Shown here piece after piece: positions 32,115-64,000 of a stretch of DNA of 64,000 bases; position 1 is the stretch's first letter, and every line of letters starts with the position of its first letter. Where the stretch lies: NCBI RefSeq assembly GCF_048128805.1, contig NC_136016.1:4850001-4914000 (forward strand). The letters are read 5' to 3'. This stretch comes from Centroberyx gerrardi. Its lineage: Eukaryota > Chordata > Actinopteri > Beryciformes > Berycidae. The position numbers and the translations under genes are program-made. The notes beneath the pieces were generated by a model, which made no database searches, was not told the origin of the DNA, and was given only the letters and a program-made list of their open reading frames with translations.

Positions 32115-35068
32115 TTAGTGGGATTTCCTCACATGTGCTTTCACAAGCTCTGGCCGACTGAAGGCCATTTCACAGACGGAACATTTATGGGGTTTCTCTC
32201 CCGTGTGGGTCATCTGGTGTCTTTTCAAAATCCCTGCGCTTTTGAAGTTTTTGTCACAGGTAGGGCACTTGTACGGCTTTTCCCCTGTGTGCATCCTCAT
32301 GTGTGCAGTGAGGTAATACGATTGGACGAACCCCTTCCCGCACTCCTGACACTTGAACGGCCTCTCCCCGGTGTGATAGCGAGTGTGTATCTTCAGCTCC
32401 GACGACGACCTGAACCGGTTGCCACACTCGCTGCAGGAGTAAGGCCTTTCCTGCGTGTGAGTCAAATCGTGTCTTGTCAACGAGCTCGCGCTTCGGAACA
32501 ATTTGCCACAGTGCGAGCACGGGTAGCGCACGCCCGTGTGGAGTTTAGCCACATGGAGGTCTAAGCTTCTTTTAAGCGCGTAAGCTTTCCCACAGTGTTC
32601 GCAGCAAAAGCGCTTCTCTTCGGCGCTGCTGTGACAACAAAGCCTGTGAATTTTCAGCGCCGCGTTGGACTTGCAGCCTTTTCCGCAGTCCCAGCAGAGG
32701 AACGGAGCCTCTTTTGTGTGAGTTCTGTCATGGAGCTTCAGAGCAGACGCATAGCTGAACGCTTTTGGACACTTGGGGCATTTAAACGGGAGGTCGCCGG
32801 TGTGGAACCTCTCGTGCCGGATCAGACCTCGCAAGTCCGTGTAACTCCGTTCGCAAAAAGCGCAAGGAAAAGGTCCGCTGAAGTTGTGTACAGCCACATA
32901 GTGCTGGTTGAGGTCTATAAAGCCTTTGAAGCTTTCATCACACATTGTGCACGGACGAGGCTTGTGTCTCAGATTGTGAGTTTTAAGTCTTGCCACGTCT
33001 GGGAATGACCGATTACATTCTGCACAATACAGTGGATGATCGGCGAGTTTGTGTTTTCCGAGTTTCTTTGTGGACTTGAAACTCTTCCTACATTCACCTT
33101 GCTTTACGCTTTTGCCCGCCTGATGAATACCATCAGACTCGCCACCATTAGTTTTCTTTACCTTGCATGCCGTTACCATGTGCCTCTTCAAGCCTTTTTT
33201 GAACTTGAACTTTAACTCACAATTAGGACAGGAATGGGATTCATCTGAACGTGATCGCATGTGACGTTTTATGGTTCCTGTTACCGCTGCTTCACAAAGG
33301 TGACGCACGTTTGAGCCGCCCGTTTCATTTGTCTCTGTGTTTTCTGGTATATGAGGGTTCTCGTGTGAACACTGATTACTGTCCTCTGATGTGGATTCAA
33401 CAAGCTCATCTAGACTTGTATTTTTGCTTTTTCTTTCAGAAGATTTCTGGATTAATTTGCTCATTGTCTCTTGGCCTTCAACATCATCGCCATGCACCGA
33501 GGAACCCTCGCATCTGCCTGAATGCCTCTTCAAACTTGCAATGCTCTTGTAACTCTTGTTGCAAACAGTACAATGATGAGGGCGCTCTTCTGAGTGCATC
33601 TCCATATGTCTTTCCAGGAGAGAGGGGAAAGCAAGGGTCTTGCCACAAACTGTACATTCCTGAGGTCCCTTGCAAGTTTCCCCATGAGTTTTCCTGACAG
33701 CAACCTCTGATTCCTCTCCTTCGCCTGCGTTTTCCTGGTGTATCGTTGCATTACTGTCATTCTCCAAAAGTGATTGGTTCTGCTGTTCTGTGTCTGCCAA
33801 CTGGACTGTGCTGCTGAGTGGCTGGGGATCATTTTGCTCGGTGGATGGAGGAACTCCCTCTCCAGAAGGTGCCCCCACTTGTTGCGAATTTGGCAGACAC
33901 GCCTTTTCATGCGTCCTAAACTGTTGTACGCATTGGAAAGTACTGTCACAGTTACTGCAGTGATAGGGTGCGATGACAGGAGCCACAATATGGCTCTTCA
34001 CGTGAATACCCCTCTCCGAAGGTTGAGCTGCGAGTTGGTCAGAAACTTCACAGTGGCTAGGGTCTTGAGTGTCTTTTTCCTCGGGTATCTTGGATGATAT
34101 CGTCCTAGGTTGTGGCACAGTGATTCGACACACGTTTAATTCGTGTCTCTTCAGGTCGTACTGGAACTGAAAGAGTTTCTTGCACTGCGAGCACTGGAAC
34201 GGTCGCTCCCCCGTGTGGCTCCTCTGATGCCGCCGCATATCTGCCGCGCGACTGTACGTTTTACCACACGTGGGACAAGTCTTGCTTGTTGACGAACCTC
34301 GGGGTCCGCTCTTGGACTGCTCGTTTTTGGATGTTATCATTAAAAATGTTTTCATCTTCAGGCCCCGGTTTTGCCTGACCGGTCTTGGGGACGCAGTCGC
34401 GACTGGCTCAAGCCTCAGCACTTGCACGGCTGGTGTATAAAGTATGGGTGACAGTATCACATTAGACACACCGATGTTTTTCATTTGTTCATCAGTTAGT
34501 GCGCTGTCACTGGCCTCCTCACTCTCCTTTTTAATGCACTTTTCAATCTCAGGAGGGCTTTTTACATCGTTAGCTATGGTTCTGTCTGAGAGTTGAACCT
34601 GCCCATCCTCTCCTGTAGCCATCACTGAGTTAACATCCCCAACAGAGGGCTTGTTCTCTGTGGGTCCTATCTCTTCAGCAGGTATTTCAACATTATAACC
34701 AACCTGAACCTCAACGGCACAAGAGCCTAAACCCACGTTATGTCCATGTAAAGACACAACATGTTGTATAGTGCAAGGAAACTCGTCCTCGACTCCCTCA
34801 TCACTATTAACAAAGGACTGGTTCTCAACACAGCTGCTGTCTGTCTCTCTCCTCTTCTGTGTTTCTTCACTCTCCGTGCTTGAAATGCTTGAATCTTCTG
34901 TGCCTTTTTTCAGCATTGCAGTCTCCACTATCAATTCTTTGCTAAACGAGTCCATGTAATCAGTTAACACATTTGCTTCCAATACCGTCTCTCCTTGATC
35001 TGTCATGACAGTTTCCGTAGGTGGGAGACAGAGCGCTGCACAAATGCTGTCGCCAATTGACGGATTAT
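32115..35068 (-). CDS. Gene A exon 7: linker plus about 18 zinc fingers
   Basis: A single 2954-nt exon that opens after a TTTTTCAG acceptor with AT, completing a GAT codon. It begins DNPSIGDSICAALCLPP, a short segment shared with gene B (DSESPSCGECILRALSLPP). The first six fingers are spaced by long linkers and often end in Cys instead of His. The last eleven form a nearly contiguous array starting LYCAEC. Confidence 0.95.
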
Positions 35069-37331
35069 CTGAAAAATCAAAATACATGCAGTTAACCACA
35101 GATAGGCACAGATTGTCATCAAAGTTGTCTATCGAATTGATCTAACGGTGGTGCTGTGAATTTGTAACACCGCCATGTAAAATTTCCAGTCAGCCCACTT
35201 ATAATTGATCACTTCAAAATTATCATCATCACCAACAGCCTATAGTCTAGGATATCAACCACAAAAATCTTAACAGTCAAATATACTACATTACCATTAT
35301 CATTGGGTTGGCTGAGGTCTTTTTGATATTCCAGGAGGGATTTAAGCTCCTGAGGGTCAGAAAAAGACTCCACATATTCTGCCAGAACCGAAGGAACATC
35401 GCTGAGCATACAGGCAACCTGGTCACGAGAACAAAGATATTTAGTTTCAGTGCTATAAATGCCTTAAGTCCAAGACCTCTTCAATGCATAATGCACCAAT
35501 ATTGTAGGTTACCTGTTGAAGATTTGGTACAATGAGTAACTTCTCAAGCTGCAACAGGAATTTCTCCACAAGCATCTGTATATCTTTGTTATACTTGGGT
35601 CCAAATTTCACTGGGTAAACATCCTGAAATTGAGCAGTTGATCTGGGTCAACACAGTTTAAAAAGTCTTCAATAGAGTAGGAGAGAAAATATCTACGATT
35701 TCAAAGTTACAAAGCCAGACACACTGACCTGGAAGAAGTGCTGCCTCTCATCTTGATCTTTAATTAGGGTTTGAATAAAAGCCAGGATGTTTGATCCAGA
35801 TGATCCATCCCCTGTATCACTTGTCTGTGATACATCATATTACAAAAGTTAGAAAAAAAAGTTAGAAGTTAGTTCTGATTGCCATTGCATTATAGTAATC
35901 ATACAGTGCATGAAATTAAGAGAAACTCACCTCTGTGTTCCATGATGACGTGACTGTTTGCATTATGTCCAGGTGCGGCTGAATGGCCTTGAGGTCTATC
36001 GTCTGCTCTGGGCGACACAACTCCAGTATCAGCTACAACCAGAGGAAACTAGTGATAAACTCACAAAAAGTCAACCTTATGAAGAGCTGACACACTGAGC
36101 TCTAATGTCTCAATACTTTCTCATACAGTACCTGTGCCCGAAGGCCAAGACTCAGCAAAGACCTCTGTCTGTGATTAAGGAGTTCTGGGACAAGTTCAGT
36201 GACAGTTGTAACAAAGTCGTCCAGTAGCCCATAGTCGGCCACAACTCTCTGCTGGGCAGTCTGCCAGATCGCTGCAGAGACCAGCCGAAGTGGTGGGACC
36301 AGGAGGCGCAGACAGGAGAGAGGAAGAGGGGGGTCTAGAAAACGAAACATGAATGACTTGAATCATTTAGGGAATGGGCCAGGTATTGATTTGGACACTA
36401 CAGAATTAAATGACTAGAAAATGTCAAGAAAAACAAGTCATGATAGATGAGCAAGAATGGGAATACAGTGATATTAAATGTGCCAGTGAGAAAGACAGAA
36501 AGTGAGGGGAGAGAGGGAGAAGTTGGGGTAGCCCCATCTCCCTTGTATGCAGAGAACATGCCACCAATATCCATTCAAAATCTGGTAGTTTGATGTGACC
36601 TTGATTATTGCAGAATAGGTATATAGCAGAGCATAAATTAAGACCTTTTACAAACAGTTAGGATCTTCTGTTAAATTCGGCATATGTGCTCTATCAAGCT
36701 GCACTTTATTTCAATCAACTCTCAACTTTTAGAACCGACATACCTGCTCCCACCGCCCTCCATGGTGCATTTTGGTGGAAGAAGGTCGTGGGAATAACAA
36801 GCGAACCAATTAGAAAAGTTTAAATTGTATCAAAATAAGCACTGCTCGGTGTATTGTGTGTATGCCGGATTGAGGAATGGCTCCTAACGATTCAGAAAAG
36901 GTCTTGAGCTATATTTTATTAGATATGTAGGCTATGTTTGCCGATAAGCAAAGAAGGAACCGTTAATTTTCCAGATTTTAATGTAGTTGAGAGAGCGACA
37001 CTTTTCGGGGCTACGTTGGGGGTAAACCATGTCACTGCCAGGCAACAGGCCTGCGCAAAACACTAAACAAAGCGAATATTAAAAACTCGTACATGCACAC
37101 ACACATCATAATTTATGGATAACTATTTCGAATATACATTTTAGTTGAATACGTGTCACTTTACGGATATATAACTAAAAAAAAACATTTCGCCATCGTC
37201 AACACCGTTTACTGTCTGCAGGTTATTTTAGAGGTTATGGAACGAGGCCACGGCGGTTCTCACGTCACATCGAGAGAATAAAATGTCTCCGAAACATGGA
37301 TGCTACCTTTCCTCTCGGAAATATGATGCAT
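32115..37331 (-). CDS. Gene A: TINF2_N-like domain / C2H2 zinc-finger fusion protein
   Basis: Seven exons on the minus strand: 37331-37307, 36334-36132, 36032-35931, 35824-35729, 35623-35513, 35418-35295 and 35068-32115, giving 1204 residues in one continuous phase. Residues 9-220 (exons 2-6) resemble the TRFH-like N-domain of TIN2: LRLLVPPLRLVSAAIWQT, LSLGLRAQ-LILELC, KFGPKYNKD and LEKLLIVPNLQQ. Residues about 222-480 are a low-complexity linker with RPVRQNRGLKMK at 449-460. About 18 C2H2 or C2HC fingers follow from 485 to the C-terminus (last finger CSVCEMAF...HVRKSH), with canonical TGE(R/K)P linkers in the last block. Nuclear DNA binding is inferred. Exon 1 was placed by phase and similarity to gene D (ISE motif), and its donor GTAGCA is weak. 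Genes B, C and D are paralogues. Confidence 0.85.
35295..36334 (-). CDS. Gene A exons 2-6: TIN2 TRFH-like domain
   Basis: The exons are 203, 102, 96, 111 and 124 nt. Recalled human TIN2 has LRFAAAASWQVV, LCMGLKAKVVVELIL and LLFEYLCQLEKALP. The corresponding segments here are LRLVSAAIWQTA, LSLGLRAQ-LILEL and KFLLQLEKLLIVP, in the same order and spacing. In TIN2 this domain contacts TPP1 and TRF2; whether that is kept here is unknown. Confidence 0.75.
36546..37003. mobile_element. foldback MITE, copy 3 (gene A intron 1)
   Basis: The left end TATGCAGAGAACATGCC and then CCATTCAAAATCTGG match the family consensus. The internal halves AAGACCTTTTACAAACAGTT and TTCAGAAAAGGTCTTGAGCT, and TTAAATTCGGCATATG and TATGCCGGATT, mirror each other. 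The right end is eroded. It sits in the first intron of gene A. Confidence 0.7.
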
Positions 37332-37836: not shown

Positions 37837-40422
<2,586 letters not shown>

Positions 40423-42115: not shown

Positions 42116-45100
42116 ATGAACATTTTCAGACTAACCGGCGATCTCTCCCATCTAGCAGCCATCATCATCCTGCTGCTAAAAATATGGAAAACCAGGTCTT
42201 GTGCCGGTGAGTAGCCGTATACTTTAACTTGCTTTTTGCATGACCTTCTATCCTGTCACGGATACAGCGTATCATTTACCGTGAAGTTTAACCAGCCAGA
42301 TAACGGTAGCTACAGTGTAATCCGTTTGTAATGATAGTTAACGTTAGCTAGCTAACTCCCGGCTAGCTGGGCAGAAACGTTAGCTACCCAGCCAGCTTGC
42401 CCTGTCATCAAATCATAAGGTTAATTGCTGGCACTATCATTGTCACTGTTGCTAACATGGCCTACTGCAGCGTGAACAAGACTAATCATCTCATAGGAAG
42501 AGAGTTTCTCCAGAAGCAACAGTGAAGTCAGACTTGCATGGCTAGCAGCAGCAGTCTTGCTAGCGGCGGCCGTGCAGCGGGCCCTGTCCTAGTCTGTCCA
42601 CACTAGATAGGGACAGGGTGACCAGAGGGCCACAACACTTCTCGGTTTAGTTTGGCATGTTGCGCCTCATCATCTCTAGTGTGGGGGAAAAGTAAGCTAG
42701 TTTCACCCTGCGTTCGTGCATTTGGCCCGGTGTGACCTCTGACGTGGCAGCAAATAGCTGTCACTAGTTGACTGTTGCAGATCTAAGACCATACATACCA
42801 TATGCATGCATGCGCTGTTGCAAGGAAGGACTTGATTGTTTGTTGTTTTTGTCTTTTACTGTGAGGGTCAAAGGGTAAAGCGGTATCTTTGCTAGATAAG
42901 CAGTCACCTGAACTGGGTCTTTACTGGTGTTTACTGTAGGCTAAACCAGATAGCCTTGTGCAGCATATCTGCATGCAAGTCTGTAATTCAGCCTTCACTA
43001 CCCTAAATATTTGCATATTGGCCAATGTAGTTATCTGTACCAGAATTGCACAAACTAGACAGTGTCGTTATCTCTGAAAGCATGAGGTTTGGCTACAACT
43101 ATTGTAATGATGACATCCCCTTGTCTGACAGTGGGTGTGACTAAACAAAAGCATGCTGTCACTTGCCAGTGTTTGCAGGCCAGATAGACAGAGGCTTTCT
43201 GCAGGGCAGCTGTGTGTCTGTGCTTGCGATTATATATAATAAAGCTGCAGGTGTAGATGCAAACTGTGGAGCAGCACAGAACAGGCACTCTCAAACCCCT
43301 TTTACATCTGCAGTGGCAATTACTGATCAGTGCTACAGTGCAACTATTTTAGTATCGTGCTCCTAAAAATAAATGAATGCTAGTGAAACCGAATAAGGAG
43401 CACGTGCAGCTTGAGATTATTGTAACACATTGTATTTTTTCCACATATTTTCATAAATCCTGCTCATACGTTTCAGTGTAGTTGTACATGTAATCTTGGG
43501 AGGGGGGGTGATTGAGGTATAAAGGCAGCTAGATTTGTTGTCATAGTAATCGCTTGAATCACATTGTCATCTCCTTTGCAATCTTAGTCTTGGCTGTGGT
43601 ATTTAACATTATTTGCCAAAAGGTGAACAAAGTACTGCAGAACTAATCGGACATCTTGGCTACTATACATGGGCTGTCTGCAGGAAGTGGACATTTATCA
43701 AAATAGGATGATTGAATGAATGAAAATAGATGAATAAATGGCCAGAGGTTTGAAACAACAAGGTCAGAAGATTCGTCCGACTAATGCGCCCTACTGTCTG
43801 TGTCTTCACAGGTATTTCTGGGAAGAGTCAGATCCTGTTTGCCTTGGTATTCACCACTCGCTACCTGGACCTGCTCACTTCCTTCATTTCTCTGTACAAC
43901 ACCACCATGAAGGTGAGACACGCACACATTTCTTCTCACCGGCACATCCCGAAGCATTTCCTTTAAGAACCCCATCCCCCTGTTTATCCAAGCACTAAAC
44001 ACACAATGTCAAGGGTTAACTGGTACTCCAAGTTGACACACCTTTGTTGAGCAAAGGATAAAGTGGTGCAGCAAGGTGTAACAGGCTTGTGTGTCATAAT
44101 TGCTGCTTCATTATGTTTGTGTCAGACCAATACACATAGGGGCCAGTGAATTTTCACCAAGCGTGGATGGTGGTTTTGCTAACGGCGGTGGATGTCTTGC
44201 GTTTCAGGTCATCTACATCGGATGTGCGTATGCCACAGTGTACCTGATCTATGTGAAGTTCAAGGCTACTTATGATGGGAACCATGACACGTTCAGAGTG
44301 GAGTTCCTGGTCGTCCCTGTTGGAGGCCTGGCATTCCTGGTTAACCATGACTTCTCTCCACTGGAGGTAAGAAATTCAGCACAACGGCACACTGATTCTG
44401 CATACTTGTCTCTCAAATACCTCACATCATTTTTCCCCAAACACCCCCAACACTCCCGTCTCTCCGTTCCCTTTCTTTTCGCCCAGATCCTGTGGACGTT
44501 CTCCATCTACTTGGAGTCAGTGTCCATCTTGCCCCAGCTTTTCATGATCAGCAAGACCGGCGAGGCCGAGACCATCACCACCCACTACCTGTTCTTCCTG
44601 GGACTCTACAGAGCCCTCTACCTCATCAACTGGATATGGCGCTTCTACTTTGAGGGATTCTTCGACATGATTGCCATCGTTGCCGGGGTGGTGCAGACCA
44701 TCCTCTACTGCGACTTCTTCTATTTGTATGTAACAAAAGGTGAGTTGTGCTGCAATTTCTTTTACTCTCACAAAACACAGTGGCAGTGGAATCTGTTTTG
44801 TTTTACTGCAACAAGAAGTTCTGTTAGTTGGTTACCTATCAAATATAGCATCGTTCATGCATGCATGCAAGTATGTATATTCATGTATACTTGTAAAGTG
44901 GATCTTAGATGTGCTCAGAATAGGCTTTGCATCACATGAGATCTGACCTTTAGTACAGCCATCCCCACTGTCTGGACTTCCCTCCAACAACATAATACCC
45001 TTATATCTCAATTATACATTTTTTTTATTGCTAGTTCCTCCCAATTATTTTAGTCTCTTTTCATACAGTTTTTGGATATTTCTAAAGCTTCTTTAGTAAC

Positions 45101-47700: not shown

Positions 47701-50510
47701 TCATTTGTGATATTTGTCCTTATGAGTTTTCAGACGGTGTCTGCGATTGAACCCTTCATCACAGACCTCACACCTAAAGGGCTTCTCCCCGGTGTGGACT
47801 AGCTTGTGTCTGTTCAGCAGGTTGCCTGAGGTGAATCGCCTCTCGCAGTTTGGACAGGCATAGGGCCTCTCCTGTGTGTGACTCCTCAGGTGGATGGTTA
47901 GATAGTTTGCTTGAACAAAGCCCTTCTCACAGATCTGGCACTTGAACGGCCTTTCCCCAGTGTGATATCTGACATGTATCCTCAGCTCGGCATTTGACCG
48001 GAAACTCTTTGTACATCCTTTGAAGGCGCATGTAAAAGGCTTTTCCCCGGTGTGGATCAGGTCGTGCCTACCCAACGCAGACCGACTCAGAAACAGCTTG
48101 CCGCAGTATGAGCAAGGGAATCGCATCCCCTTGTGGTGTATCTGAAAGTGGGCATTCACTGCCCTTTTTGCCCGGAAGGTTCTCTTACATAGGGGGCATG
48201 AGAAGCGTTTCTGCTGGCCTGAGTGGCGTTCCATGTGCTTTTTCAGTAGTTCATTGGTGGTGAAAGTCCTGCCGCACTCCCAGCAAAGGAAACGCTTCTC
48301 TCCTGTGTGCGTTCTCTCATGGGACACGAGATCTATGTGCCGGTTGAATCTCTTGGGACACTTAGTACAATGGAACGGGAGATCCCCTGTATGTGTCCGC
48401 TCGTGTCTGATGAGAGCGCCTAGCTCGCTGTAACTTTTGCAGCAGTGTGTGCAGACAAATGGTCCACTGAAGTCATGGGCATCGAGATAGTGTTTGATGA
48501 GAAAGCGGACCACGTTGAAACTCTTATCACACATGGTGCACCTGACCGGCCTGTGCATGACATTGTGGACAGCCAGCGTTTCAGCATCTGGGCAAACCTT
48601 CCCACACTCGGCGCAGTAAAGTGGGTTGTGGGTGAGTTTGTGAGCTCTCAGTGTTGATCTGAGCCCAAATTCTTTCCCGCATTCGTCACACTTGCGGCTT
48701 TTCTTTATCCCAACCTGCCTCAGTGACTCACTGGGTTTGACTGATTGCACCTTGCAGATCTGTGTTATGTGATGCAGCCATCCATTTCTGGTCTCAAAGT
48801 TGATACCACAGCGGGGACAAGACAGCGGGTTCACTTTCGAAAGGTGCCTTGTGTGACTTGTCTTGCCATCCATCACATTGTTCCCGCGGCTGCTTTCCAG
48901 TTCGGTCCCACTTGGGTGTAACTGGTTTGAGGATGTCTTCACACTGCTGTCAACGTGTGATGTCTCAATGGCGACACCACTGACACTTTCTCCTCTTTCT
49001 GCTGACAGTTCCTGGATTATTTCATTGGAAGCCTCCGGTTCATTTTCATCCCGATTTTGGTTGGTACCTTTCTTACATAACTCTTTGTGTTTCTGGAAGT
49101 TTTTTAAGTACTTGTAAGTCTTCTGACAGTTGGTGCAGTTATAGATAACATCACTTGAGGGAGTCATCCTGTGCTGTATCATTTCCTTAGATCTCTGTAT
49201 TGTCTTGCTACATGTTGAGTGTGTGAGAGAATGAAGGGATGTCACAGCGTTCTGTTCCTGCTGTTCATCACTTGTTTTAGGCTCTGGCAAAACCTGGAAT
49301 GTGCTGCTAAAAGGGTCAAAGATTTCTGCGTCATGCTGTAGAGTCTTGGCCGGTGATGGGGCTTGTTTGACATTATGTAACAATTCAGAGGTTTCTCCAG
49401 GTGATGTTTGATGTGGAAAGCTTTCGAGTGGCCCAAAGTTATTCTCCCCCATTGCTGTAGTGCTGCCACTTTCTCCAGAAGAAACCTCCCTGCGTTGCTG
49501 GCTTGCAAATAAACATGCTTCTTCATGAGCCTTCATGCTACCTACATGCTTAAAAGACCTCTCACAATTGCTGCACTGATAGGGACGCTCGTTGGAGTGC
49601 GATATCATGTGGCACTTTACCCCCGCGGCGCTGAGAAAGGTCTTTCCACACGCAGTGCATTTGAATTCTCTGATTGTTTTATCCGCTCCGGTGCAAGCCC
49701 TGTGCATGTGTCTCTTCAAATTCAAATTACTTTGCAAACATTTCCCACATCTAAGGCACTGGTACTTCTGCTGCTTTGTGCCAACCTGTTGATGTTGCCC
49801 AACGTCTGAATCAAGACTGGGAGGTTGATTATTGTTGCTCTCAGGAAGTTGCATTTTCACTGGTTTTCTCTCTTGAGCTAGAAATGTCTTCATCTTCAGA
49901 CCCCTGTTTGGTCTTTCTGATCTGGGTAGCAATAATGTGGGCATACTTCTTAAGTCCTGGGTCTTCCGCTGCTGTTTGGCCTGGTTTAAGGGACTCTTCA
50001 GTATGACATTGCCCTTTTCAATACTTGCCATCACTCCAAGAGCTTCTGCTGTCCTGTCCTCCCCAATCCTCACTATCAGTGTTTCACACATTTCCGGAGA
50101 ATCTTCACTTTTAATGTCTTTGGACCAAATGTCTCCATTAGAATTTATAGTACACGTGTCCCTTTCCTTTAGAGTCACTTGCTCTCCGCTCACGGGTTCT
50201 GTGTCCTCAAGATATTCTGCAGTGTCACCATCATTCTCAGTCAGGTCAACAATATGGACAGGGCACTGCTTGTTGTTTCCCCCATAGTCTTCTGTTCCGC
50301 TCTGCTGCATTTGCACTATTTCGCCTATACATGAACTTAGTCCCATCTCAGTACTTGCTTTCACTGCTGCATTTCCCACCTTCAAGTCTTCACTGGTGGA
50401 TTCCACCTGTGTTCCAGTTGCTGTCTGCTCATTTAAATTCACAACTTTCTCCACAGGTGGAAGACTGAGGGCTCTTAGGATGCACTCGCCACAAGAGGGA
50501 GACTCTGAGT
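47701..50510 (-). CDS. Gene B exon 7: linker plus about 17 zinc fingers
   Basis: A 2810-nt exon after a TTTCTTTAG acceptor, opening with AC to complete a GAC codon, and coding DSESPSCGECILRALSLPPV. It has no internal stop. Fingers six to seventeen keep the same order and spacing as the last block of genes A and C (LYCAEC start, a CTMCDKSF finger, SGPF linker, CWEC finger). Confidence 0.95.
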
Positions 50511-52950
50511 CTAAAGAAAAGAGGAAATGGAAATCAAAAATGTTATCGTGCTGAACAGAGTTGCATTCTCTTATACAATAATTTGGATAACTCAGAGGAG
50601 CCTACCATTGTCATCTAATTGGCTGAGGTTTTTTTGATACTCCAACAGGGATTTAAGCTCCTGAACATCAGAGACAGACCCAACACATTCCTCCAGAACA
50701 GAGGGAGCATCACCGAGAAGGGAGGCAACCTGACGATGAGAAGTATAAGAATAACCATCAAGGAGGCTGACCAAGCAATGAGTCTACCGAGGCGAAGTCT
50801 TCTCACAAGCAAGATTGGTCTTACAACCCTGGTTAGGACTAGAGTGGACACAATAGGTCAGTCAATCTATATTCTGGAAGATGAGGCCTCATCCTACAAC
50901 TGGCAAAAGTTATAGAAGAAGAAAACACTTTTTGTAAGACTTTCAGATGTGAATGGGTCTCAGTAATATGGGTTTTCAGGAGAGGCCTATTTACAGAGAA
51001 TAAGTTAAGAGTGTTGTTAAATTCCGCTGGTCAAATTAATTAAAAGTATGGATGAAAACAAAACATAGATTTATAGAGCTGTAATTGTTATGTAGTGTCA
51101 TTCTGAGACCAGTGTGACTCTTGAGTTTGTGGCAAAGAATCTTAGTGCAGCACTTCTGACAACTTCACGAATCTGGGCCACGATTATAAAGAATACATAC
51201 TGCATTGCTATTTTTACCTCCTGGAGTTTAGGTACTGGAAGCAACTTCTCAAGTCGTGATAAGAACTGCCACACGAGGGTCTGTATTGCTCTGTCATATT
51301 TTAGTCCAAACTCCAGAGGAAAAACATCCTAGAAAAGAATAATATCATGGAGTGGGGAAAAAAAAAGAAGAATCCACTATAAATATGAGAAAATATAAAT
51401 GGTAAATAAAGGCAGGAAAATTGACTGCAGCTCCAAATCCAGAGCTGTGCATGTGTAGCTCTTACGCACTAACCTGAAAGAAGCATTGTCTCTCATCCGG
51501 GTCTTTCAACAGAGTCAGAATCAAACCCAGGAAATTTGATCTGGACAATCCCTCCTCTGCATTTGTGGCCTGCAACACAGAAATGCCCGCAACACATAAG
51601 CCTTCAATGGACCGACTGACATAATGGTAACCAAAGTAGGTATTTTGTCCCTATCAGAACAGACCTCTTTTCTGCAGATTGCCATGAGGATCTGCATCCT
51701 GTCCAGATGTGGCTGAATTGTTTGCAGGTCTGCCGGCTCTGACTGACAGTGCTCCAGAATAAGCTGGGAACAGTCAGAACAAGTTGGTGAGGAGTGATGC
51801 TAACAACCACAAGTATGATAATGTTACGGATTACTACTGTTGCAGCTGGAAGCATAATTCCATATACTGTACCTTGTTCATGTCCTAAGCACCCCCTCTC
51901 GCTACTGACAGAATGTAGGCTTACTAACCAGCCAAATTTGTTTGTGTATGTCTGACAGTGGGAAGGTATTAATCATGTGTAAGTCCAACACCCGCTGCCC
52001 CACCTCTACCAATATATTCACACACCCAAAAGCAGGCAAAAACATTTCAGGGGCAAAGAGCATGTAATTACCCTCGAAATCCCCCATAATCAAGGAGGAA
52101 ACCGGAGCATTACACTCCCCTCATATATGAAGGGATGATCCAAACTCTTTTGGTGTCCTACCCATTTACATCAGTCGCTCACCCTTGCTCGAAGGCCCAA
52201 AAGAAGTTGAGCTCTCTGGTTGGGATTCAGAAGCTCTGGAACGATGTCTGTGGTCATGCTGATGAACTCTTCAAGTAACCCGTAATCTGCCACAACTTTC
52301 TGCTGGATGGTCTGCCAGATCGCTGCAGAGACCAGCCGGAGTGGCGGGACCAGGAGGCGCAAAGATGGAAGAAGAAGTCGGGGATCTAGGAAAAAACAGA
52401 AAGAGAAACAATCTCAGTTGTACTGTAGTCTGCTGCTTGGTTTGTATTGAGTTTTCCAATCTGTGGAAAATCATCAAACTCATTGGATCAAGAGAAACTC
52501 TAGAAGAGTAGAGCAATTATATTGGTGTTATAGTATAGCCTAAACTAGCTTCACATGGGGCATGTTCAATTGCCCCAAAACGTAGCAAACAGGAAGTAAC
52601 GTTTTCCGGTTTGTTCTCCTTGGTATGCACTGGGTGAGCAGCTTGCGTTCAAATGAATGGGCGGCCATTTTTTCCGTTCATCCTCCAGTTAATATAGAAC
52701 CTCCTTGATAAAACCTCGTTGCGTTCAACGCACTACCGTTTCCTTCCGTTACTTTGTTTGCTACGTTTTGGGGCCATTGAACATGCCCATGGTACCAGCT
52801 GTTCTTAAAGGGCAATAGCAAAACACCCCCTCCAACCAACTATCCATTTCTTGCCAATACAATTAAACTCTAACTTTTCTAAAAGCAAAGGCTGCTTGTT
52901 TGTTAATCAATGCAATTCTTACCTCCCCCCTCGTAATAGTGCTCATGCAT
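47701..52950 (-). CDS. Gene B: TINF2_N-like domain / C2H2 zinc-finger fusion protein
   Basis: Seven exons on the minus strand: 52950-52923, 52385-52183, 51763-51665, 51569-51474, 51328-51218, 50729-50606 and 50510-47701, coding 1156 residues. Exon sizes 28/203/99/96/111/124 match genes A, C and D. Residues 1-10 are MHEHYYEGGD. Residues 10-220 form the TIN2 TRFH-like domain (LRLLVPPLRLVSAAIWQT; LLLGLRAR-LILEHC; FLSRLEKLLPVPKLQE). The linker has RPNRGLKMK at 420-428. About 17 fingers start near 472, the first few with C2HC ends (KRHMHRAC, KAHEEAC, QKHKELC) and the last block ending KTHKDKYHK. One finger has a two-residue longer CAFKGC knuckle. It is convergent with kdelr2 and head-to-head with gene C. 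Its fingers differ strongly from those of A and C, so different DNA targets are likely. Confidence 0.88.
50606..52385 (-). CDS. Gene B exons 2-6: TIN2 TRFH-like domain
   Basis: The exons are 203, 99, 96, 111 and 124 nt, all with GT-AG borders. Key segments are VVADYGLLEEFISM, DIVPELLNPNQRAQLLLGLR, LQTIQPHLDRMQ, KDPDERQCFFQ, DVFPLEFGLKYD and LEECVGSVSDVQELKSLLEY. The order is the same as in gene A. Confidence 0.8.
52558..52788. mobile_element. 231-bp MITE in gene B intron 1
   Basis: Inverted ends of about 40 bp: GGGCATGTTCAATTGCCCCA and then AAACGTAGCAAACA at the left; TTTGCTACGTTTTGGGGCCA and then TTGAACATGCCC at the right. It has no coding potential. The target duplication is unclear (ATG flanks both sides). 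Confidence 0.75.
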
Positions 52951-53425: not shown

Positions 53426-56234
53426 ATGGAAGCTCATATTTCAAGGGGAAATTGTGAGTAACAGACGCTCTGGTGATGGCCTTACACACGCAACGCGTTA
53501 CTCGTTTAATGTGGTCTTGCTATCGGCAGGCGTACAGACCTCTTAGAACTTGACTTAAGACCTGTTGTGAATCGTTAGGATCCACTTTTCGTTCCGGCAT
53601 ACATCTAATACACCAAGCAGCACCTATTTCAATACAATTCCTGTTCATACAGTCGTCTTTCAGTAGAATGTACCTTGGTGGGCGGTAGCGAGCAGTGTAA
53701 ACCAGTTACAAAAGTTAACGTTTTCTCGAAATATTGCCCTCCTTGGTGGATCATTTGTATGCCGAATTTAACAGAACATGTACCCTAACGATTCGCAAAA
53801 GGTCTTAAGTCATGTTATGTGACGTGTGTACATTTGCCAATAACCTAGGCCATTTTAAATAGCCAAATTTGAATGGACTTTGGTGTGACGTTCTAGCCAT
53901 ATTCATTCATTAACCTTTTTGTATAAATTGGCTGCTGTATGCATTAGCTAGCTATCCTGCTAGCTTTATATTCATTAATATTCTATTTATCTATCTATAT
54001 CAATATTTTATTCTATTTTAGACAGCTGTACGCTGCTCTGGTCTGCAGACAATGGTTTAAGTAGACTGGAATAGGATGTGAACTGTCAACATAACACAGT
54101 ACAGCATCTTAGCTTGTACTGAGACATTTATGTTAAAGGTTCATGAAGAGGGACGGAAGGAGACGGGACCATACTACCTAACTAAAAATGCAACCTAAAT
54201 ACAATACAGTTGGTATAATGTATATTTTACAACTAGAGTTTCACTTGTATGTGATTCCTACTGCTCTGTACACCACAATAGGCTACTTAACAATTTTTTT
54301 TTTTTTTTAACTTACTTATTTTAAGAGACAAAGTCAAGATTTTGCAACCCCTTAGAGTAAGATCAAGATAATCCTGGATTTAAGATACATCTATTTGCAT
54401 TCAGGTCCCCCTCTTCCTCTCTCCTGTCTGCGCCTCCTGGTCCCACCGCTTCGGTTGGTCTCTGCAGCGATCTGGCAGACCATCCAGCAGAGAGTTGTAG
54501 CCGACTATGGGATGCTTGAGGAGTTTGTTTCCATGGTTACAGACATTGTCCCGGAGCTACTCACCAGTAGACAGAGGGCCCAACTCATCCTAGGCCTCCG
54601 AGCGCGGGTGAGGAAGAGTAACGGCAAGTGATTGCATCACATCATGATTTGGTGGAATTTCATAGCACTCTGCTGTATTTCTGTCTTTGTCAGAGTCAAG
54701 AGAGTCTTCTCTTTGGCTTTGATCTTAACAAGCGCTGTTAATTACTATAACAACCAGTGCATAAGCCTGCAGAGCAATGCTTTGGGAAGAAAAATGAGAC
54801 TTATCATAGTTCAGAAGTGCTTATTTTGCCATATTACACTGGTGGCAAAGTTAATTTTAAAGTCCAGCATATGACACTGGTTTCACAAATGATGAATAAA
54901 TGTACTGATGCTTGGCTATGGAGCTTATAGATCTAACTTCCAAGTGTATCTTTACAATAAGATGACATAACATTTTAAAAAGTACTGTTTCCACACTATA
55001 GCAGCTAACTATGTTTTTCAAAATTAAGGAGGGAGCACATTTTTTCGGCCACTCTGCTTATGCAAGACTGTTGTGTTATGGTTTCAGCTGATCTTGGAGT
55101 TATGTCGGTTTGAGGCAACTGCTGACTTTGACATTATTCAGCCACACCTGGACAGGATGCACACCCTCTCCACAGCATGGGTGACGGAGGTGACTTTAAA
55201 GCTTCTTTTTTTTGTCAAATCGGCATGAAAATTAGATGAATGCCCCTTTAAAACGGACCATAGACTGCACAATGATCACCATGGTCTGCTTATTTCCTTC
55301 TGTGTGAAGTGTTATGATTTTTGTGTGTTATTTTCTTGCAGGCTGGTGCTACAAATACAAACTCAAACTTTGCGGATCTTGTTCAAAATTTGCTGAAAGA
55401 TCCTGAAGAGAGAGAGCACTTCTTCCAGGTCAGCACTTTGCATATGCTGTGCTTATCAATAATACAGGGCCTGGACAATGTATTAGTGCAACGAATTGGA
55501 TCAGACAACAGTTTCCGCAAACAGACAACCCTGCAAAAATGAATGGAGTAGTTTCAATTTGTATTGGCAGGTTTTCATGCTGTTTTGGTCTGCTTTTTAC
55601 AGCTTGTATCCACTGTGGAGCAACTTTAATGCCATCAGCTTTGTTTGTTTTGGCTAACGACTATCGCTGACAGATTAATTATTCAGATGAACTGGAGTGG
55701 GCCCTGCTTTGAGTGTGTGTTACTGTCAGTGCATGGCTTGGTACCTGTATTCTGTCTCACTCTGCTAATTGGCTTGTAATCAGGGTTGTAGTACTTAAGT
55801 CTGGAGTCTAGGGCTGCAGCTATCGATTATTTTAGTAATCGAGTATTCTACCGATTATTCCATCGATTAATCGAGTAATCGGATAAGAAATACTTTTGCT
55901 TTATTAAAGAGCAATAGTAAATATACAAAAGAGAAGAGCTGTCCGCACGAAGCTGTCCATACGACACTGTGATTTACTGAAAACGAGGTGAAATAATAAT
56001 TATTATTGATATTTATTACTAGGCCTAAATATCATACAAGTTCATAAGACTGGCTAATGTACATTTATTTGCTATGTTGAAGGGTTGCCCTACACCTGCT
56101 GACCCTACTCACTGCAATCAAACTAAACTGAATATACCTGCTGTATTGGACTGGTGCATTTTAGGCTCCAATTGCTACTTACACCACCTGATATTTTGCT
56201 TTCTGGGGTATTTTATGCATCACTGTGAGGGGAG

Positions 56235-56285
<51 letters not shown>

Positions 56286-59200
56286 GTGTGTGACTATCAT
56301 AATAATAACATGAATGAAGCTCAGGCTTTCACAAATTGACTGCAGCATTTTATTTTCTGTGGTTATTTTCTTGAGCAAAACTTAGCTAACTTAGGGACAT
56401 CATAACTAGCCACCATATTGATTTACGTTCTTAACTAGCCATTACATATAGCCATAATTAACGTGCATTCTTTACTAGCCTTCATCTCATCCCGTTTTAA
56501 TATTAAGTGCTGACTCCGCCCACCCGGCCAGTTTCGGCGTACGCCGGTAGCAATTACAAGTGGACCCTATCCTACAGTCCCTGCTCTCAGTGGAGGGAGG
56601 GAGCTACGCTGTGTGTGGCAAGCGCTGTGACCGTCAGACCTCTCTGGATTAGACAAGCAAGTAGAGAAAACCGGCATCAGCCGAACCAATTTATTGCCAA
56701 ATGCTTTGGGATTCAACACATTAACATTGCTTCCCATGGTCAGAAAAAGTCGGCAGATTTGTCGCTAGTCGCTTTTGAGAAATAAAGTCGCCAGGGGGGT
56801 CTGAAAAGTCGCTAAGTCTAGCGACAAAGTCGCCAAGTTGGCAACACTGGATCCGAAACTTTGGACACTTTCTGTCGTTTTCTCTGGCCTGTCTCTTCTC
56901 TTCGCCCCTCGCTATTTTCTCTCTCTTTCTCCAGCGCGTTGTGCAACAGTAATAATCATCCGTGCGAAACACTGAGCGTGTATATAGTTATATGGATTAA
57001 ACGAAGCTTCGATGCAAAGAATTTGCATCGATGATTTTTAGTAATCGAGTTACTCGAGTTTCTCGAGGAATCGTTTCAGCCCTACTGGAGTCCATACCAC
57101 TTTTCTGACATCTTGGACTTGCCTCGGTCTCCTGCCTATTTTGTCTCGGACTTGTCTTGGTCTCGGTCACTATTGGATGCTGACCCGACTTCTTCCTGCC
57201 TATCTTTACAATGTACCTGTGTATAGTATGTAATGGTCCTCAAACTTCTATCCATTGATTAGTCAAAATCCTATGCATTCATTAATTGGATGTTTAAAGA
57301 GTATAGGACAGATCTCCTGCAGATAGATCTACATCTCTGTTGATGCTTAAGAAACTCCTTAAGCATTATTTTTGACATTTAGAAAGAAATATGCACTGTT
57401 TATTGCCTTTTTTGGTCTTGAGTGGGACTCGATTTGCTCTTGTCCCGGTCTTGACTTGGTCTCGACCCCCTAAAACAACCCCATCGTTGCACACTATTTG
57501 TCTGTTTTTAAAGTTTTGCTAAAAATTAATCCAAATATATTTCCTGTCCTTCAGAATGTTTTCCCTGAAGAATTTGGTCCGACGTATGATGAAGCACTGC
57601 ATACCTTGATGTGTCTGTTTCTTTCCAGACTTGAAAAGTTTCTTCCCCTTCAAACTCTCCAACAGGTAGATAAACAAGACATAAAACACCATAAGGACAT
57701 TGTGTGTGACACTGATATCCATTTAAATGATGTATGAATTTGCTATTTTTTGTGGACGAGCTGCATTTATTTTGCCTTTTTAAAATCAAGTTTATTTTGT
57801 CTCTTTCATTTAGGTTGCCTCCATGTTTAGCGATGTGTCCTCTTTTCTGGAGGAATGTATGGAGTCTGTGTCTCACTGTCAGGAGCTTAAAACCCTGCTT
57901 CAGTATCAGAAAGACCTCAGCCAGTTGGATCACAACGGCAAGCATTTTTTGATAAGAAATCCATATAACAACTCATGGATTTGTTTGATTTGTCATCCTT
58001 TTTTCTAAGTTTTTCCTCATCATTTTACTAAAATCTATTGTTTTTTGTTTCAGATGATTCTTTGGATGGTGCCTGCATTATTTCAGCTCTTAAACTCTCC
58101 TCTGTAGAAAGAATGCCAGAAAAGGCACAATCAGAAGCCCATGTCTTCCATGACATGCTTTCATTTAGAACAGGAATGGAGAAGGAATCTGCAACATTAC
58201 TACATATAAAACAGGTGAAAATGGAGACGACCAGAAAAGAACATGATACGATTGTTGGAAAAGATGGAACAGTGGTGCATTTGAGAGAAATGGCAAGAAA
58301 TGAAGAAAATGTGGAGATTTTTCCAACTCAAGTTGAGGAGTCTCAACTTAAAAAAGAATGCAGAGTCCTGCTAAAAAGACTTGGCACGCCGGTGTCTTTG
58401 CAGTCTCGACCTGTGAGACAAAACAGAGGCCTGAAGATGAAAATGATTCTGTTGCAAGAGAAAAGACGACTTTATAAAGAGGAAAGCCCTGCCTGCAAAA
58501 CTGTGCCTACAAGGAAAGCAGCTGCCTCAGAGTCTTGTACCCAGACGAAAACGACACAATCCAGCACTAAGTCCATTTCACCATTAGTTCGTGAAACAAC
58601 GCCATCCAGTGGGGCTGAATCTGACGTCTCTGATGATGATGATTCAATCAGCATGTACCAGGATCCTTCTTTTGTGGCCCCTGTTTGTAATTCCAGTGAG
58701 GACGATTCATTGTCTAACTGCTCAGATGAGGACCCTTCCTTCATGGAACCCATTGATGACGAGGATTTGTCAGTCATCGACGAAGTGCAGGACACTTCGC
58801 GCATCAAACCCTCCACTGCAATAGAGACTCATTCCACAACACGGAGACGCCGATGCTTAATTTGCAGGGAGCAAGTGAAGGGACTCATGAACACTCACAT
58901 TAAAACCCACTTTCCAACTGATGATTACACCTGTCCTCGATGCGGCACAAAGTTCATGCGTTTACCATCTTTGAAGTTGCACTTAAGGAGAACTTGCTAT
59001 GATCAACAGCAGGTAGGTCCAGAGGAGGCAGAGGAACCCCAACATATTTTTACATGCGACGAATGTGACAAAGCATTTAGGTATCAGCTATCGCTGGAGG
59101 AGCACAAACGGACCCACAACCAACTCTACTGCGAGGTGTGTAGGAAAGTGCTCCGAGATTCAGAAACGTTGGCGAGGCACAAGGCGTCGCACACATCGTT

Positions 59201-59987
59201 TCAGTGCACTCTGTGCGAGGAGAACTTCCGTCTTTATAAGCCCCTGGCGAGGCATTACGAGAACGTACACCAACTCAGCAGACCGTTCAAATGCAACCAT
59301 TGTCCAAAAAGTTACTCCAAGCTGCGTCATTTTATTGCGCACGAGTGGAAACATACCGGCCAACGTCCATTCCAGTGCCCTCAGTGCTCCATGAGATTCA
59401 AAATCGACTCGGATCTCGTTACCCACCTGAGAGTCCACACGAGAGAGAAACCATTCCTTTGCGCGGATTGCGGCAAGGCGTTCTCCTGCAGATCGAACCT
59501 CACGCGGCACTTGAATATGATCCACAGCCAGGCGCGGAACGAGAGGCAGCATTCCTGCTCCCTGTGCGAGAAATCCTACAAAGAGAAAGGAGCCCTGAAA
59601 AAACACGAGAGGAGCAAGCACTTACACGAGTTGTTCCGCTACCCGTGCTTGGACTGCGGGAAGATGTTCTCCTCGTCGGCGATGAGCAGACACAGACTGA
59701 TCCACACCGGAGAGAAACCTTTCAAGTGCAGAATTCCCGAATGCGACGAGCACTTCAGGTCCACTACTGAAGTGAAGAGGCACATCATGCAAAAGCACAC
59801 TGGAGAGCGACCGTTTAAGTGCGATGTCTGCGGGAAGGGTTTTATAAGAAATAGCATACTTAAATCACATATGCGAATACACACAGGAGAGAAGCCATTT
59901 TCTTGCTCTGTCTGTGGCAGAGCTTTTCCACTACTCCATAGCATGCAAAGACACATGAAGCTTATTCATACATTTGTAGCAGAGTAG
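53426..59987 (+). CDS. Gene C: TINF2_N-like domain / C2H2 zinc-finger fusion protein
   Basis: Seven exons: 53426-53453, 54405-54607, 55088-55189, 55342-55428, 57555-57665, 57814-57937 and 58054-59987, coding 862 residues. Residues 10-218 form the TIN2 TRFH-like domain (LRLLVPPLRLVSAAIWQT; LILGLRAR-LILELC; EFGPTYDEALHTL; FLPLQTLQQ). The linker has RPVRQNRGLKMK at 337-348 and an acidic stretch with two DPSF(V/M)-P units (about 422-450). Thirteen fingers run from about 486 to the end. One finger (CLDCGKMFSSSAMSRH) has 11 instead of 12 residues between the second Cys and the first His. The intron after exon 6 starts with GC (GCAAGC), supported by the 124-nt length and phase shared with A and B. 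A hAT-like element lies in intron 4. Confidence 0.87.
53480..53901. mobile_element. foldback MITE, copy 4 (gene C intron 1)
   Basis: GACTTAAGACCTGTTGTGAA and CTAATACACCAAGCAGCACC at the left mirror GCAAAAGGTCTTAAGTCATG and CTCCTTGGTGGATCATTTGT at the right. The right end GGACTTTGGTGTGACGTTCT then AGCCATA is intact. The left end is diverged. Confidence 0.75.
54405..57937 (+). CDS. Gene C exons 2-6: TIN2 TRFH-like domain
   Basis: Exons of 203, 102, 87, 111 and 124 nt code the same segments as in genes A and B. Exon 4 is three codons shorter (AGATNTNSNFADLVQNLL). Exon 2 is nearly identical in nucleotides to exon 2 of gene D. Confidence 0.8.
55783..57490. repeat. outer dispersed repeat (TTGTAGTACTTAAGTCTGGAGTC ... 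CTCGACCCC), split by a hAT element
   Basis: The left part ends GTACTTAAGTCTGGAGTC at 55808. After the hAT element the sequence resumes with TCTCGGACTTGTCTTGGTCT-type near-tandem motifs and ends near GTCTCGACCCCCTAAAACAA. These are typical of a fish repeat built of TCTTGGTCTCGG units. Boundaries are approximate. Confidence 0.5.
55809..57084. mobile_element. non-autonomous hAT-like transposon, 1276 bp
   Basis: The inverted ends are TAGGGCTGCAGCTATCGATT and the complement of AATCGTTTCAGCCCTA. The perfect 8-bp target duplication CTGGAGTC lies at 55801-55808 and 57085-57092. Subterminal clusters of AATCGAGT-like motifs occur at both ends. No transposase frame is seen. It contains a (GT)n tract at 56239-56290. 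It lies in intron 4 of gene C. Confidence 0.88.
58054..59987 (+). CDS. Gene C exon 7: linker plus 13 zinc fingers
   Basis: A 1934-nt exon after TTTGTTTCAG, opening with AT to complete a GAT codon (DDSLDGACIISALKL). The last ten fingers correspond to the conserved block of A and B (LYCEVC start; ...SRPFKCNHC; CADCGKAF; C-terminal CSVCGRAF...MKLIH). The sequence ends TFVAE. Confidence 0.95.
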
Positions 59988-61080: not shown

Positions 61081-61081
61081 C

Positions 61082-61175: not shown

Positions 61176-61388
61176 GTGGTGGGGAGCGGAACGGACATAC
61201 GCTGCGCCGCGTTTCACCCGACTGCTATACCGGGCGGAACAGGCAACAGGACAAGATACGCACAACGGTCGTCCGTGTTCTTTCCTCTTGGATATAAACA
61301 CCATAGGACTGTTTACTTTGGCGTTTTGTTTGATCGCACATTGCATGTTATTTTTCTAACTGTAATGTAACTGCAGCGAATACACAGG

Positions 61389-64000
61389 ATGGACGGAGAT
61401 ATTTCCGAGTTATCTGGTGAGTGATAATCGTTTCGGATATTGTTTGGCTAGGCCGCGCCACAGCCCGCGCGCGGGAGTAGCACTGCTAGCTAACTAACCA
61501 ACTTCGTATTTTTTAATGTTGACGGGGAGATATTTGTCTGACTTAACGTACTTCACGACAGCTTTAAATATGAGTGATAACTCCCAGAGGCATCAGTTGG
61601 TTCTTTTATCATTAAAATACTCAGGGTCATATCAGTGAGCTCATTAAGACGCAGTTTCGGGACACGGGCTAAAGCTAGCATTGTTTCTAGCTGAATGCGC
61701 ATAGGCCGGCCCGAGATCAATTATCGGACATGTCCCCGTCTGACGTTCTTAGTAAAGCTTTTCTCAAGTAAACTGGACAACGCCCCCTTCAACACTACTT
61801 CCACTATATTTTACCAGGTTTACCAATGCATGTGCCAGTTTGGTGAATAACGCTAACAAATTCGACAAGCGCATCCAACCAAATTAGAGCTGGGCGGTTT
61901 CTTGTGTTTTCCGAGCTCCCAACGTAAACCCTTACATTATGGAAACGTTATAGCCCAGACCCCATCTTATCAACGAGTTATGATCTTACAAAATGTGTAA
62001 GTGTCCTGCGAGGAAGCTTTAACGGGAGCAGGCGTTACTACCAGGCTTATCTACGTGTCCGATAATGGCCCTAGGGACAGGACTCCGAGGTTTGTGTTGC
62101 ATCAGCAATCGTCCGTCACTTGAAAAACAAACGCAGGTTACATGACCGAACAAGAAACTACATCATTGTACAATTACTTTGATATTATTAGTCAGTGGTT
62201 TGTTGGACTTACTGGAAGGGCTGGAATCTCGCCACAACTAATAGCTAATAATAAGAGCTAATAATGGGCCTCCGCGCTATTTGTACGTTACCTCCGTGTT
62301 ATTTGTATGAAATTGGGAAAATCTGTTTCAATTAGTCATTGCATTAGGAGCTGATGCACGCATGAGAAAAATCCCTTTTGTAGATGCAGTGAAACTGTGG
62401 GTTATGTTTAGACAATAGATTTACTGTCAAGTTATCTGGCAATCTCTCTTGTACGTAGAGAAGGTCATGCCAAATTCTGCTAAAAAATCTGGCAGTTTAA
62501 TGGTGCTTTGCTTATTGGCAGCCACCTATTGGATGTATGCCGAAGTTAAGAGCGGCTTTACTTAAAGGTTTTATTATATCATATATCAGGCTAGTCATTC
62601 TAGATAAGCTCATCACTAGGATACATCCCCAATAGCAGTTGGGTGATACTGTATCACATAATGTGTAAATGTGGTTTAAAAAACCTTGCATCCTTCATTG
62701 CAGACATAGTCATGTTTTAAATTTGTGTGTCCAGGTCCCTCTCTTCCTCTCTCCTGTCTGCGCCTGCTGGTCCCACCGCTTCGGCTGGTGTCAGCAGCGA
62801 TCTGGCAGACCATCCAGCAGAGAGTTGTGGCCGACTATGGGATGCTTGAGGAGTTTGTGTTCATGGTCACAGAGATTGTTCCTGAGCTTCTCACCATGAG
62901 ACAGAGGGCTGAACTCATTTTGGGTCTCAGAGCACGGGTGAGGAAGAGGCTGCAAAGGAAAAGTTGCAGTTCATGTTTTTCAATACCATTGTAAAGGTTA
63001 AATAAGATGAAAATGATCACAGGTCTTTGCAGCAGGAAAATATAAATATAACAAAACCAATAACACTAGAATGTATTGAGTCGAAATATGTGAATTCAAA
63101 GTTTGGTAAAATATGAATTGGACATTATGAGGGTGTTGGAAAATAACTGCAGTAGAACATGTTGAGACAAAGTACAAATGAATGTAGAATATGTACAATT
63201 TGACAGTATACAGAAAATATAAAATGTATGCAGTACAAAATAAGTGAAAAGAAAAAAAAAATTGTCAAGGTCTGTGCAATATATAACAAATGTGAATATG
63301 AAAGAAAAAATGTATTTGCAGCACATGCAAGATGTGTAAATGTGCATCATATTCACATTAATGGGTCTATAGAAGATCACATCTGTACAGAAAGTATACT
63401 AAGCAGAATGTTTGTGGCAGAAGACATGCATTTGGTGCTTGGCAGATGTGAAATTTGGGCCCTGGGTGAATGGGAACAATACACAGATGAGCTCTGTGCT
63501 TCCTTTTCTCATAATTAATTGTTACTTATCACTGTTGCCCTCTGTAGCTGATCCTGGAGTTGTGTCGCTCCGATGCGACTGCTGACCTCCAGATTATTCA
63601 GCCGCATCTGGACCGAATGCAGAGCCTCAGGTCTCTGTGGAACGTAGAGGTGGGTCTAAACCTGAACTGTAGCTTAAGTAACTAGTGTGTGTGTGATCAG
63701 GCATGTGAAGGAAGGTTTTCTTGTTTTTTAAAATGTTATATTTTTTGACATTCCCGTTAATTTCCAGTGGAGATCCCATTTTTCTGTTTTATTTTTTTGT
63801 CTCCCTCCCATTATTTCCCTTTGTGTTGGGTTGATCACATCCCTGCTATAGTCAATATAAAAGATGTAACTAAAAACACAAGTGCAATGACACAGATGCT
63901 GGCTTTGCAACACACCAAAGTAACATCTGCCATTTTAAACCATCCTTTGTTGCAGACTGATCATGCAGATCTAGAAGTGTCCGATTCACATTTCCTGGGC
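61389..64000 (+). CDS. Gene D: TINF2_N-like paralogue, first exons (cut by window end)
   Basis: Exons 61389-61416, 62735-62937, 63548-63649 and the start of an exon at 63956 (open to 64000). Sizes 28/203/102 match genes B and C. It encodes MDGDISELSGPSLPLSCLRL and continues LLVPPLRLVSAAIWQT, EEFVFMVTEIVPELL, LILGLRAR-LILELCRSD and LQIIQPHLDRMQSL. Exon 2 differs from that of gene C at only a few bases. Whether a zinc-finger exon follows cannot be seen here but is expected from the three paralogues. Confidence 0.8.
61417..62455. other. gene D intron 1, CpG-rich start
   Basis: Just after the exon 1 donor lies a short CpG-dense stretch (GCCGCGCCACAGCCCGCGCG) that may belong to the gene D promoter region. 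Nothing else is seen. Confidence 0.5.
62456..62560. repeat. foldback MITE fragment, copy 6 (gene D intron 1)
   Basis: CATGCCAAATTCTGCTAAAA and AATCTGGCAGTTTAATGGTG, then GCTTATTGGCAGCCACC and TGTATGCCGAAGTTA, match the left quarter of the family, with the middle deleted. Confidence 0.65.

Follow-up and report, generated by a model that had tools for sequence, protein, structure and literature searches.

The window analysed here, a 64-kb stretch of Centroberyx gerrardi DNA (positions 4850001-4914000 of the 25.9-Mb contig C20 in a genome of 779 Mb), holds four related genes, A and B on the minus strand and C and D on the plus strand, in which a domain resembling the TRFH-like N-terminus of the shelterin protein TIN2 is joined to a long C-terminal array of C2H2 zinc fingers. 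As far as its sequences indicate, this is a real and little-noticed family; the plan of an N-terminal module followed by a C2H2 array is known, and the shelterin domain within it is new. The TRFH domain of TIN2 would then occur outside shelterin too, at the N-terminal end of fish zinc-finger proteins. We consider it likely that A-D encode regulators that bind DNA and use the TRFH-type domain for interaction, and that they are not part of shelterin.

Gene models and finger exons

Exons 2 to 6 of A-D measure 203, 99-102, 87-96, 111, and 124 bases, respectively, and are followed by a long exon 7. Spliced together, exons 2-7 give one open frame each of 1195 codons in A, 1146 in B, and 852 in C, with a single terminal stop, and their splice sites are AG/GT except for a GC donor after exon 6 of C. 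Gene D is truncated inside exon 4 by the end of the window, and its model was finished with a flanking locus (L025) that holds exons 5-7 and 13 fingers. These exon models and frames bear out the four genes, their strands, and the partial state of D as read by a first-pass annotation of this DNA, and the fact that A, B, and C each stay open through all five splices argues that exons 2-6 are indeed joined to the finger exon, as it had claimed. Its seven-exon plan stands for exons 2-7 in those three genes but for exon 1, a short coding exon, only in C and D, whose first exons resemble each other. In B, the lone candidate for exon 1 has a strong donor and the correct phase and lacks homology support; in A, exon 1 was looked for and not found. 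In the best-scoring models of three family members, GC replaces the GT donor: exon 6 of C (window position 57938), exon 2 of locus L009, and exon 4 of locus L019.

Long finger arrays are present in the last exon of A, B, and C, and their size varies with the pattern used: 13, 13, and 10 fingers, respectively, with C2H2 only; 17, 17, and 11 when C2HC is also allowed; and 17, 17, and 13 with a loose pattern. The 13-18 fingers first annotated for all three genes thus hold as arrays and not as a fixed count, C having 10-13. The 13 fingers of D lie beyond the window in L025. Exon 7 starts with a short motif resembling CILSSLSLPP (Table 1; DSCILSSLCLPP in D), which recurs in the finger-less locus L021 (GDSILTSLSLPP) and in L012. 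A second element, RPxRxNRGLKMK or part of it, precedes the fingers in all of A-D, with a weaker form in L018; it is basic and possibly a nuclear-import motif.

The head motif also served to connect fronts and fingers across the 18 finger-bearing loci of the family described below. By a loose match made by eye, head motif and fingers lie in one open frame in 11 of the 18, the motif lies in a separate upstream frame in five, and it was not seen in the remaining two (L015 and L019). In 11 loci the shared frame links fingers and TIN2-type front, a link that is less firm in the other seven. As a control, 13 stretches of 10 kb were examined, and none contained at least three fingers in one frame, compared with 18 of 20 family loci; these stretches comprised nine loci (L027-L035) and four pieces of the window and are partly dependent, L027-L034 being contiguous over 80 kb and L035 a neighbour of L012. 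Together, the open frames and the head motif support the fusion of a TIN2-type domain to C2H2 fingers that had been proposed for these genes.

The TIN2-type domain

The spliced A, B, and C proteins match Pfam TINF2_N (PF14973) at E-values of 4.1e-39, 6.7e-45, and 1e-46, values that come from hand-joined exons with a few wrong border residues (corrected C, 2.8e-49). The full profile is covered, with bit scores of 134.7, 153.5, and 159.4 against a curated cut-off of 29.4, and the human TIN2 segment scores 191 bits on the same model. The spliced domains of A, B, and C match no other Pfam family at E 0.01, and TINF2_N is matched at E 0.001 or better by every one of the 20 paralog domains spliced after the initial search of the genome. 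Because the Pfam model may itself include fish paralogs, a search of the PDB provides an independent test. With C as a single sequence, human TIN2 (5xyf_A) was the sole match at E up to 1 (1.7e-7), and a profile built from 13 of the 20 paralogs found 5xyf_A at 1.1e-20, the next match being at 0.72. These Pfam and PDB matches indicate that the N-terminal domain of A-D is homologous to the TRFH-like domain of TIN2 and not a chance resemblance, in line with the identity first assigned to exons 2-6. In a Pfam scan of A-C, only TINF2_N and zinc-finger-type models rose above the cut-off, with no KRAB, SCAN, or BTB domain (exon 7 of D was not scanned, and FiNZ was not searched for).

A dispersed family

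The four genes had been called a local family, which is too narrow: TINF2_N loci lie on several contigs, and A-D are only one clade among them. When the whole genome was searched with PF14973, 41 exons matched at a threshold of E 0.001; we grouped them into 20 loci, of which four are those of the window on C20, 12 lie on C24, three on C13, and one on C23. Relaxing the threshold to E 10 added a 21st locus, on C4, whose single exons fall below the cut-off and which reaches 74 bits once spliced; the counts are lower bounds, and the genome holds at least 21 such loci. Two further weak matches lie at C24:12620878 and C4:11078023. Candidates for all five domain exons were found in each of the 20 loci and in the 21st, the lowest score being that of exon 3 in L015; this search imposed the exon phases of A-C, so that agreement in phase is not an independent finding. 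The A-D clade has support of 100/98 (100/99 in a second tree); L018 is its neighbour, a placement that is moderately supported (89/83 and 88/79).

Downstream C2H2 frames of 8-21 fingers are present in 18 loci. L021 on C23 and the C4 gene (L036) have neither fingers nor Myb repeats. In L012, Myb/SANT-like repeats replace the fingers; five are confirmed Myb_DNA-bind_4 domains, a sixth is a candidate, and no fingers were seen in L012 or L035. These two adjoining loci (C24:12599500-12619499, minus strand) hold a TINF2_N gene with about six domains of the Myb/SANT-like type behind it, perhaps in a single transcript.

Sequence divergence and selection

The TINF2_N domain is kept under purifying selection, with omega of 0.18-0.32 by the Nei-Gojobori method in the nine pairs computed out of 190 possible. 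In the fingers of A-D, contact positions differ in 61-75% of aligned pairs, other free positions in 51-70%, and structural positions in 28-30%; the comparison covers 61 aligned finger pairs from six gene pairs, which are not independent. The DNA targets of the A-D fingers have probably diverged, and there is no clear sign of extra selection on the contact residues, so that adaptive diversification is not supported by this comparison.

Likeness between paralogs is uneven from exon to exon. The tandem neighbours L013 and L014 (C24:12627500-12644299) have a synonymous divergence (dS) of 0.06 in the domain-coding sequence and fronts that are 82-90% alike, introns included, with finger exons only about 70% alike. 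In two other pairs, one exon is more alike than the rest (exon 5 of L022/L023, 95%; exon 2 of C/D, 89%). Because of this unevenness, the three patterns suggest gene conversion or patchwork duplication.

Candidate TIN2 genes

A-D are not, by these comparisons, orthologues of TIN2. They score below L021 and most paralogs against human TIN2, they carry finger arrays, unlike shelterin TIN2, and they are not linked to acd/TPP1, whose single match is on C4. Better candidates are found among the finger-less members. L036 (C4:29246500-29253499, minus strand) is a fast-evolving TINF2_N gene that lies about 180 kb away from acd/TPP1; its candidate exons follow the same plan, its last-exon frame has 687 codons, and its domain matches 5xyf_A at 7.5e-11. 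In the tree it joins human TIN2 to the exclusion of the other 20 (support 96/81), at a node where two long branches meet, and a grouping of human TIN2 with L021 is not rejected (approximately unbiased test, p-AU 0.143). When 80 kb of DNA surrounding acd was searched for exons of the family, all matches were weak (best E 0.1); the C4 gene lies farther away.

L021 (C23:8993200-9003199, plus strand) gives the top score against human TIN2 at 72.0 bits, closely followed by L012 (70.1) and L010 (69.7). Its last exon reads LFLKRYYKTKHGTYVPTLREFWKP (KTKHGTYVPTLREF), which we take to resemble the C-terminus of human TIN2. An FNLRPP string in L021 lies outside any validated exon, and a match to SRPIRENR, in a frame other than that of exon 7, was taken as chance. 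The view of L021 as the only TIN2 was dropped in light of the narrow score margin and the grouping of the acd-linked L036 with human TIN2, and both genes remain candidates for the shelterin TIN2.

Discussion

The architecture of A-D suggests how such proteins might work. The four would be intact, expressed protein-coding genes whose products are nuclear and bind DNA in a sequence-specific manner. Their C-terminal C2H2 array would make the DNA contact, each paralog probably having a target of its own, and the TIN2-type TRFH domain would act as a protein-protein interaction module for cofactor docking, oligomerisation, or both. The domain would then occupy the place held elsewhere by KRAB, SCAN, BTB, or FiNZ. 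We propose that a TIN2-like gene gained fingers at its 3′ side and then spread by tandem and dispersed duplication, and that the result is most likely a family of transcriptional or chromatin regulators. The pairing of TINF2_N with Myb_DNA-bind_4 in L012 fits a portable module of this kind.

Several observations weigh against the reading of A-D and their relatives as intact regulators. In seven of the 18 finger loci, head motif and finger frame are not one frame and their join is assumed; dS reaches at least 0.76 in all but one of the nine pairs, which makes the domain omega rough; dS of exon 7 could be estimated in two of the nine pairs only, where omega is 0.21 (C/D) and 0.13 (L022/L023) and indicates constraint; and the excess of change at contact residues over other free finger positions is small. 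In addition, we know of no protein, telomere proteins apart, in which a TRFH domain has an effector function. Taken to its extreme, this doubt would make the loci decaying relics or chance neighbours, with TIN2-like exons beside unrelated finger frames, and reverse-transcriptase-like frames seen by eye among the Myb repeats of L012/L035 could be read in that way. Such decay is very improbable given that exons 2-7 of A, B, and C remain open over their 1195, 1146, and 852 codons, that domain omega is near 0.2, and that head motif and fingers share a frame at 11 of 18 loci.

A role at telomeres or subtelomeres, in which the domain recruits TPP1 or TRF2 to sites chosen by the fingers or carries the fingers to telomeres, had been raised for these genes and is improbable, even with the domain being a true TIN2 homologue by Pfam and PDB profile. 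Human TIN2 residues F152 and E153 are needed for binding of TPP1/TRF2 (PMC8262337). The residue matching E153 is glutamate in 11 of 20 paralogs, L021 included; at the two positions, A reads EK, B WQ, C CL, D WL, and L021 WE, so that A-D have lost E153, yet the C4 candidate, which reads LY by eye, has tyrosine there as well. Likewise, no F/YxLxP motif was found between the domain exons and fingers of A-D, in the head portion of any of the 18 finger frames (many of these portions being short), or in the head frames that stand apart from the fingers in L010, L011, L013, L014, L016, and L020, but it is equally absent from the exon-7 frames of L012, L021, and the C4 gene. Loss of E153 and the missing motif therefore do not separate A-D from the candidate TIN2 genes of the same genome, which share one or both, and we abandoned the argument that these tests rule out shelterin recruitment. 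The case against a shelterin role rests instead on paralogy, on the fingers, and on the co-precipitation results for zebrafish proteins; A-D belong to a paralogous branch, finger-less genes are better TIN2 candidates, and the family loci lie megabases away from contig ends. In 2011, three zebrafish TIN2-like cDNAs with a common N-domain were cloned, and the text of that report describes a TRFH-binding motif only in zfTIN2-1, co-precipitation with TPP1 in 293T cells only for the N-domain of zfTIN2-1, and proximity of the same TPP1 binder to TPP1 in zebrafish (PMC3032778). Two of the three zebrafish N-domains thus did not bind TPP1 in the experiments described there. Such fish genes should not be annotated as telomere factors on the strength of the domain name.

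The interpretation of A-D as regulators has a special case in which the family would silence transposons in an arms race, as KRAB- or FiNZ-ZNFs (zinc-finger proteins) do. The tandem clusters are consistent with it, as are contact residues as variable as other free finger positions and the contrast in L013/L014 between fronts 82-90% alike and finger exons at about 70%; in zebrafish, long terminal repeat elements are derepressed on FiNZ-ZNF knockdown (PMC10547256). We regard this special case as unlikely, since 18 finger loci were found against the 684 FiNZ genes given there for zebrafish, dS is high in all but one of the pairs, contact residues show no clear excess of change, and an [ST]xE[ILV] contact set recurs in the last five fingers of 10 of the 18 genes (on C20, C24, and C13).

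Among known systems, TIN2 itself (PDB 5xyf chain A) shares with A-D an N-terminal TRFH-like domain of about 165 residues at 23-26% identity, unlike A-D in their finger arrays and in the lack of F/YxLxP before them. Human TIN2 has no fingers and has a TRF1-binding motif. KRAB-, KRAB-like, SCAN-, BTB-, and FiNZ-ZNFs resemble A-D in combining an N-terminal module with a last-exon C2H2 array and in their clustered duplicates. A-D follow the same plan, with an N-terminal domain that would likewise serve for interaction and a multi-finger last exon, and differ from the KRAB, SCAN, and BTB types in having TINF2_N as the N-domain. Proteins of the ZSCAN20/ZSCAN29 type combine a helical N-domain with Myb_DNA-bind_4 repeats, as does L012, in which TINF2_N stands in place of SCAN and no fingers were seen. 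The FiNZ module, as described in the text of PMC10547256, has 28 residues in one exon, compared with about 210 residues over five exons here.

The closest relatives may already have been cloned, for zfTIN2-2 and zfTIN2-3 combine a TIN2-like N-domain with other C-termini according to the text of PMC3032778. The zfTIN2-2 reverse primer given there translates to DMKSLLEHHT, like exon 6 of the present family (DLKSLLQHH in L019), and zfTIN2-2 is probably a member; the term "zinc finger" is absent from the main text of that report, the zfTIN2 sequences themselves not having been compared. Among the papers listed in searches of the openly licensed literature in PubMed Central, none describes a TIN2-domain zinc-finger family in its title or the start of its abstract. 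Pfam/InterPro may well contain architectures of this sort through automatic annotation. The main texts of two papers on fish zinc-finger genes make no mention of TINF2 (PMC10547256, PMC11603059).

Through this family, the binding partners of TRFH domains other than telomere proteins can be addressed directly. More speculatively, and with little confidence, we suggest that a shelterin fold has turned into a general recruitment or oligomerisation domain of fish transcription factors, joined to C2H2 or Myb/SANT arrays and with a cofactor network of its own, and that members retaining TPP1-contact residues may draw shelterin parts to non-telomeric sites.

Coordinates and neighbouring genes

Table 1. 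Exons of genes A-D, in positions of the window
Feature	Position	Strand	Remarks
Gene A exon 7	32115..35068	-	head motif GDSICAALCLPP, RPVRQNRGLKMK motif, then 17 C2H2/C2HC fingers
Gene A exon 6	35295..35418	-	
Gene A exon 5	35513..35623	-	TINF2_N
Gene A exon 4	35729..35824	-	TINF2_N
Gene A exon 3	35931..36032	-	TINF2_N
Gene A exon 2	36132..36334	-	TINF2_N start
Gene B exon 7	47701..50510	-	head motif GECILRALSLPP, NRGLKMK motif, 17 C2H2/C2HC fingers
Gene B exon 6	50606..50729	-	
Gene B exon 5	51218..51328	-	TINF2_N
Gene B exon 4	51474..51569	-	TINF2_N
Gene B exon 3	51665..51763	-	TINF2_N
Gene B exon 2	52183..52385	-	TINF2_N start
Gene B exon 1, tentative	52923..52950	-	MHEHYYEGG; strong donor, phase fits
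Gene C exon 1	53426..53453	+	MEAHISRGN; resembles D exon 1
Gene C exon 2	54405..54607	+	TINF2_N start
Gene C exon 3	55088..55189	+	TINF2_N
Gene C exon 4	55342..55428	+	TINF2_N
Gene C exon 5	57555..57665	+	TINF2_N
Gene C exon 6	57814..57937	+	GC donor
Gene C exon 7	58054..59987	+	head GACIISALKLSS, RPVRQNRGLKMK motif, 10-13 fingers by pattern
Gene D exon 1	61389..61416	+	MDGDISELS; resembles C exon 1
Gene D exon 2	62735..62937	+	TINF2_N start
Gene D exon 3	63548..63649	+	TINF2_N
Gene D exon 4	63956..64000	+	runs off window end; remainder in L025

Two unrelated genes lie between A and B on the plus strand, a METTL9/DREV methyltransferase (window positions 39089-40422) and a KDEL receptor gene (ER_lumen_recept, 44100-44939). 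On the minus strand, positions 322-23680 hold ankyrin-repeat exons with Pfam Ank matches, which presumably resemble the start of a caskin gene.

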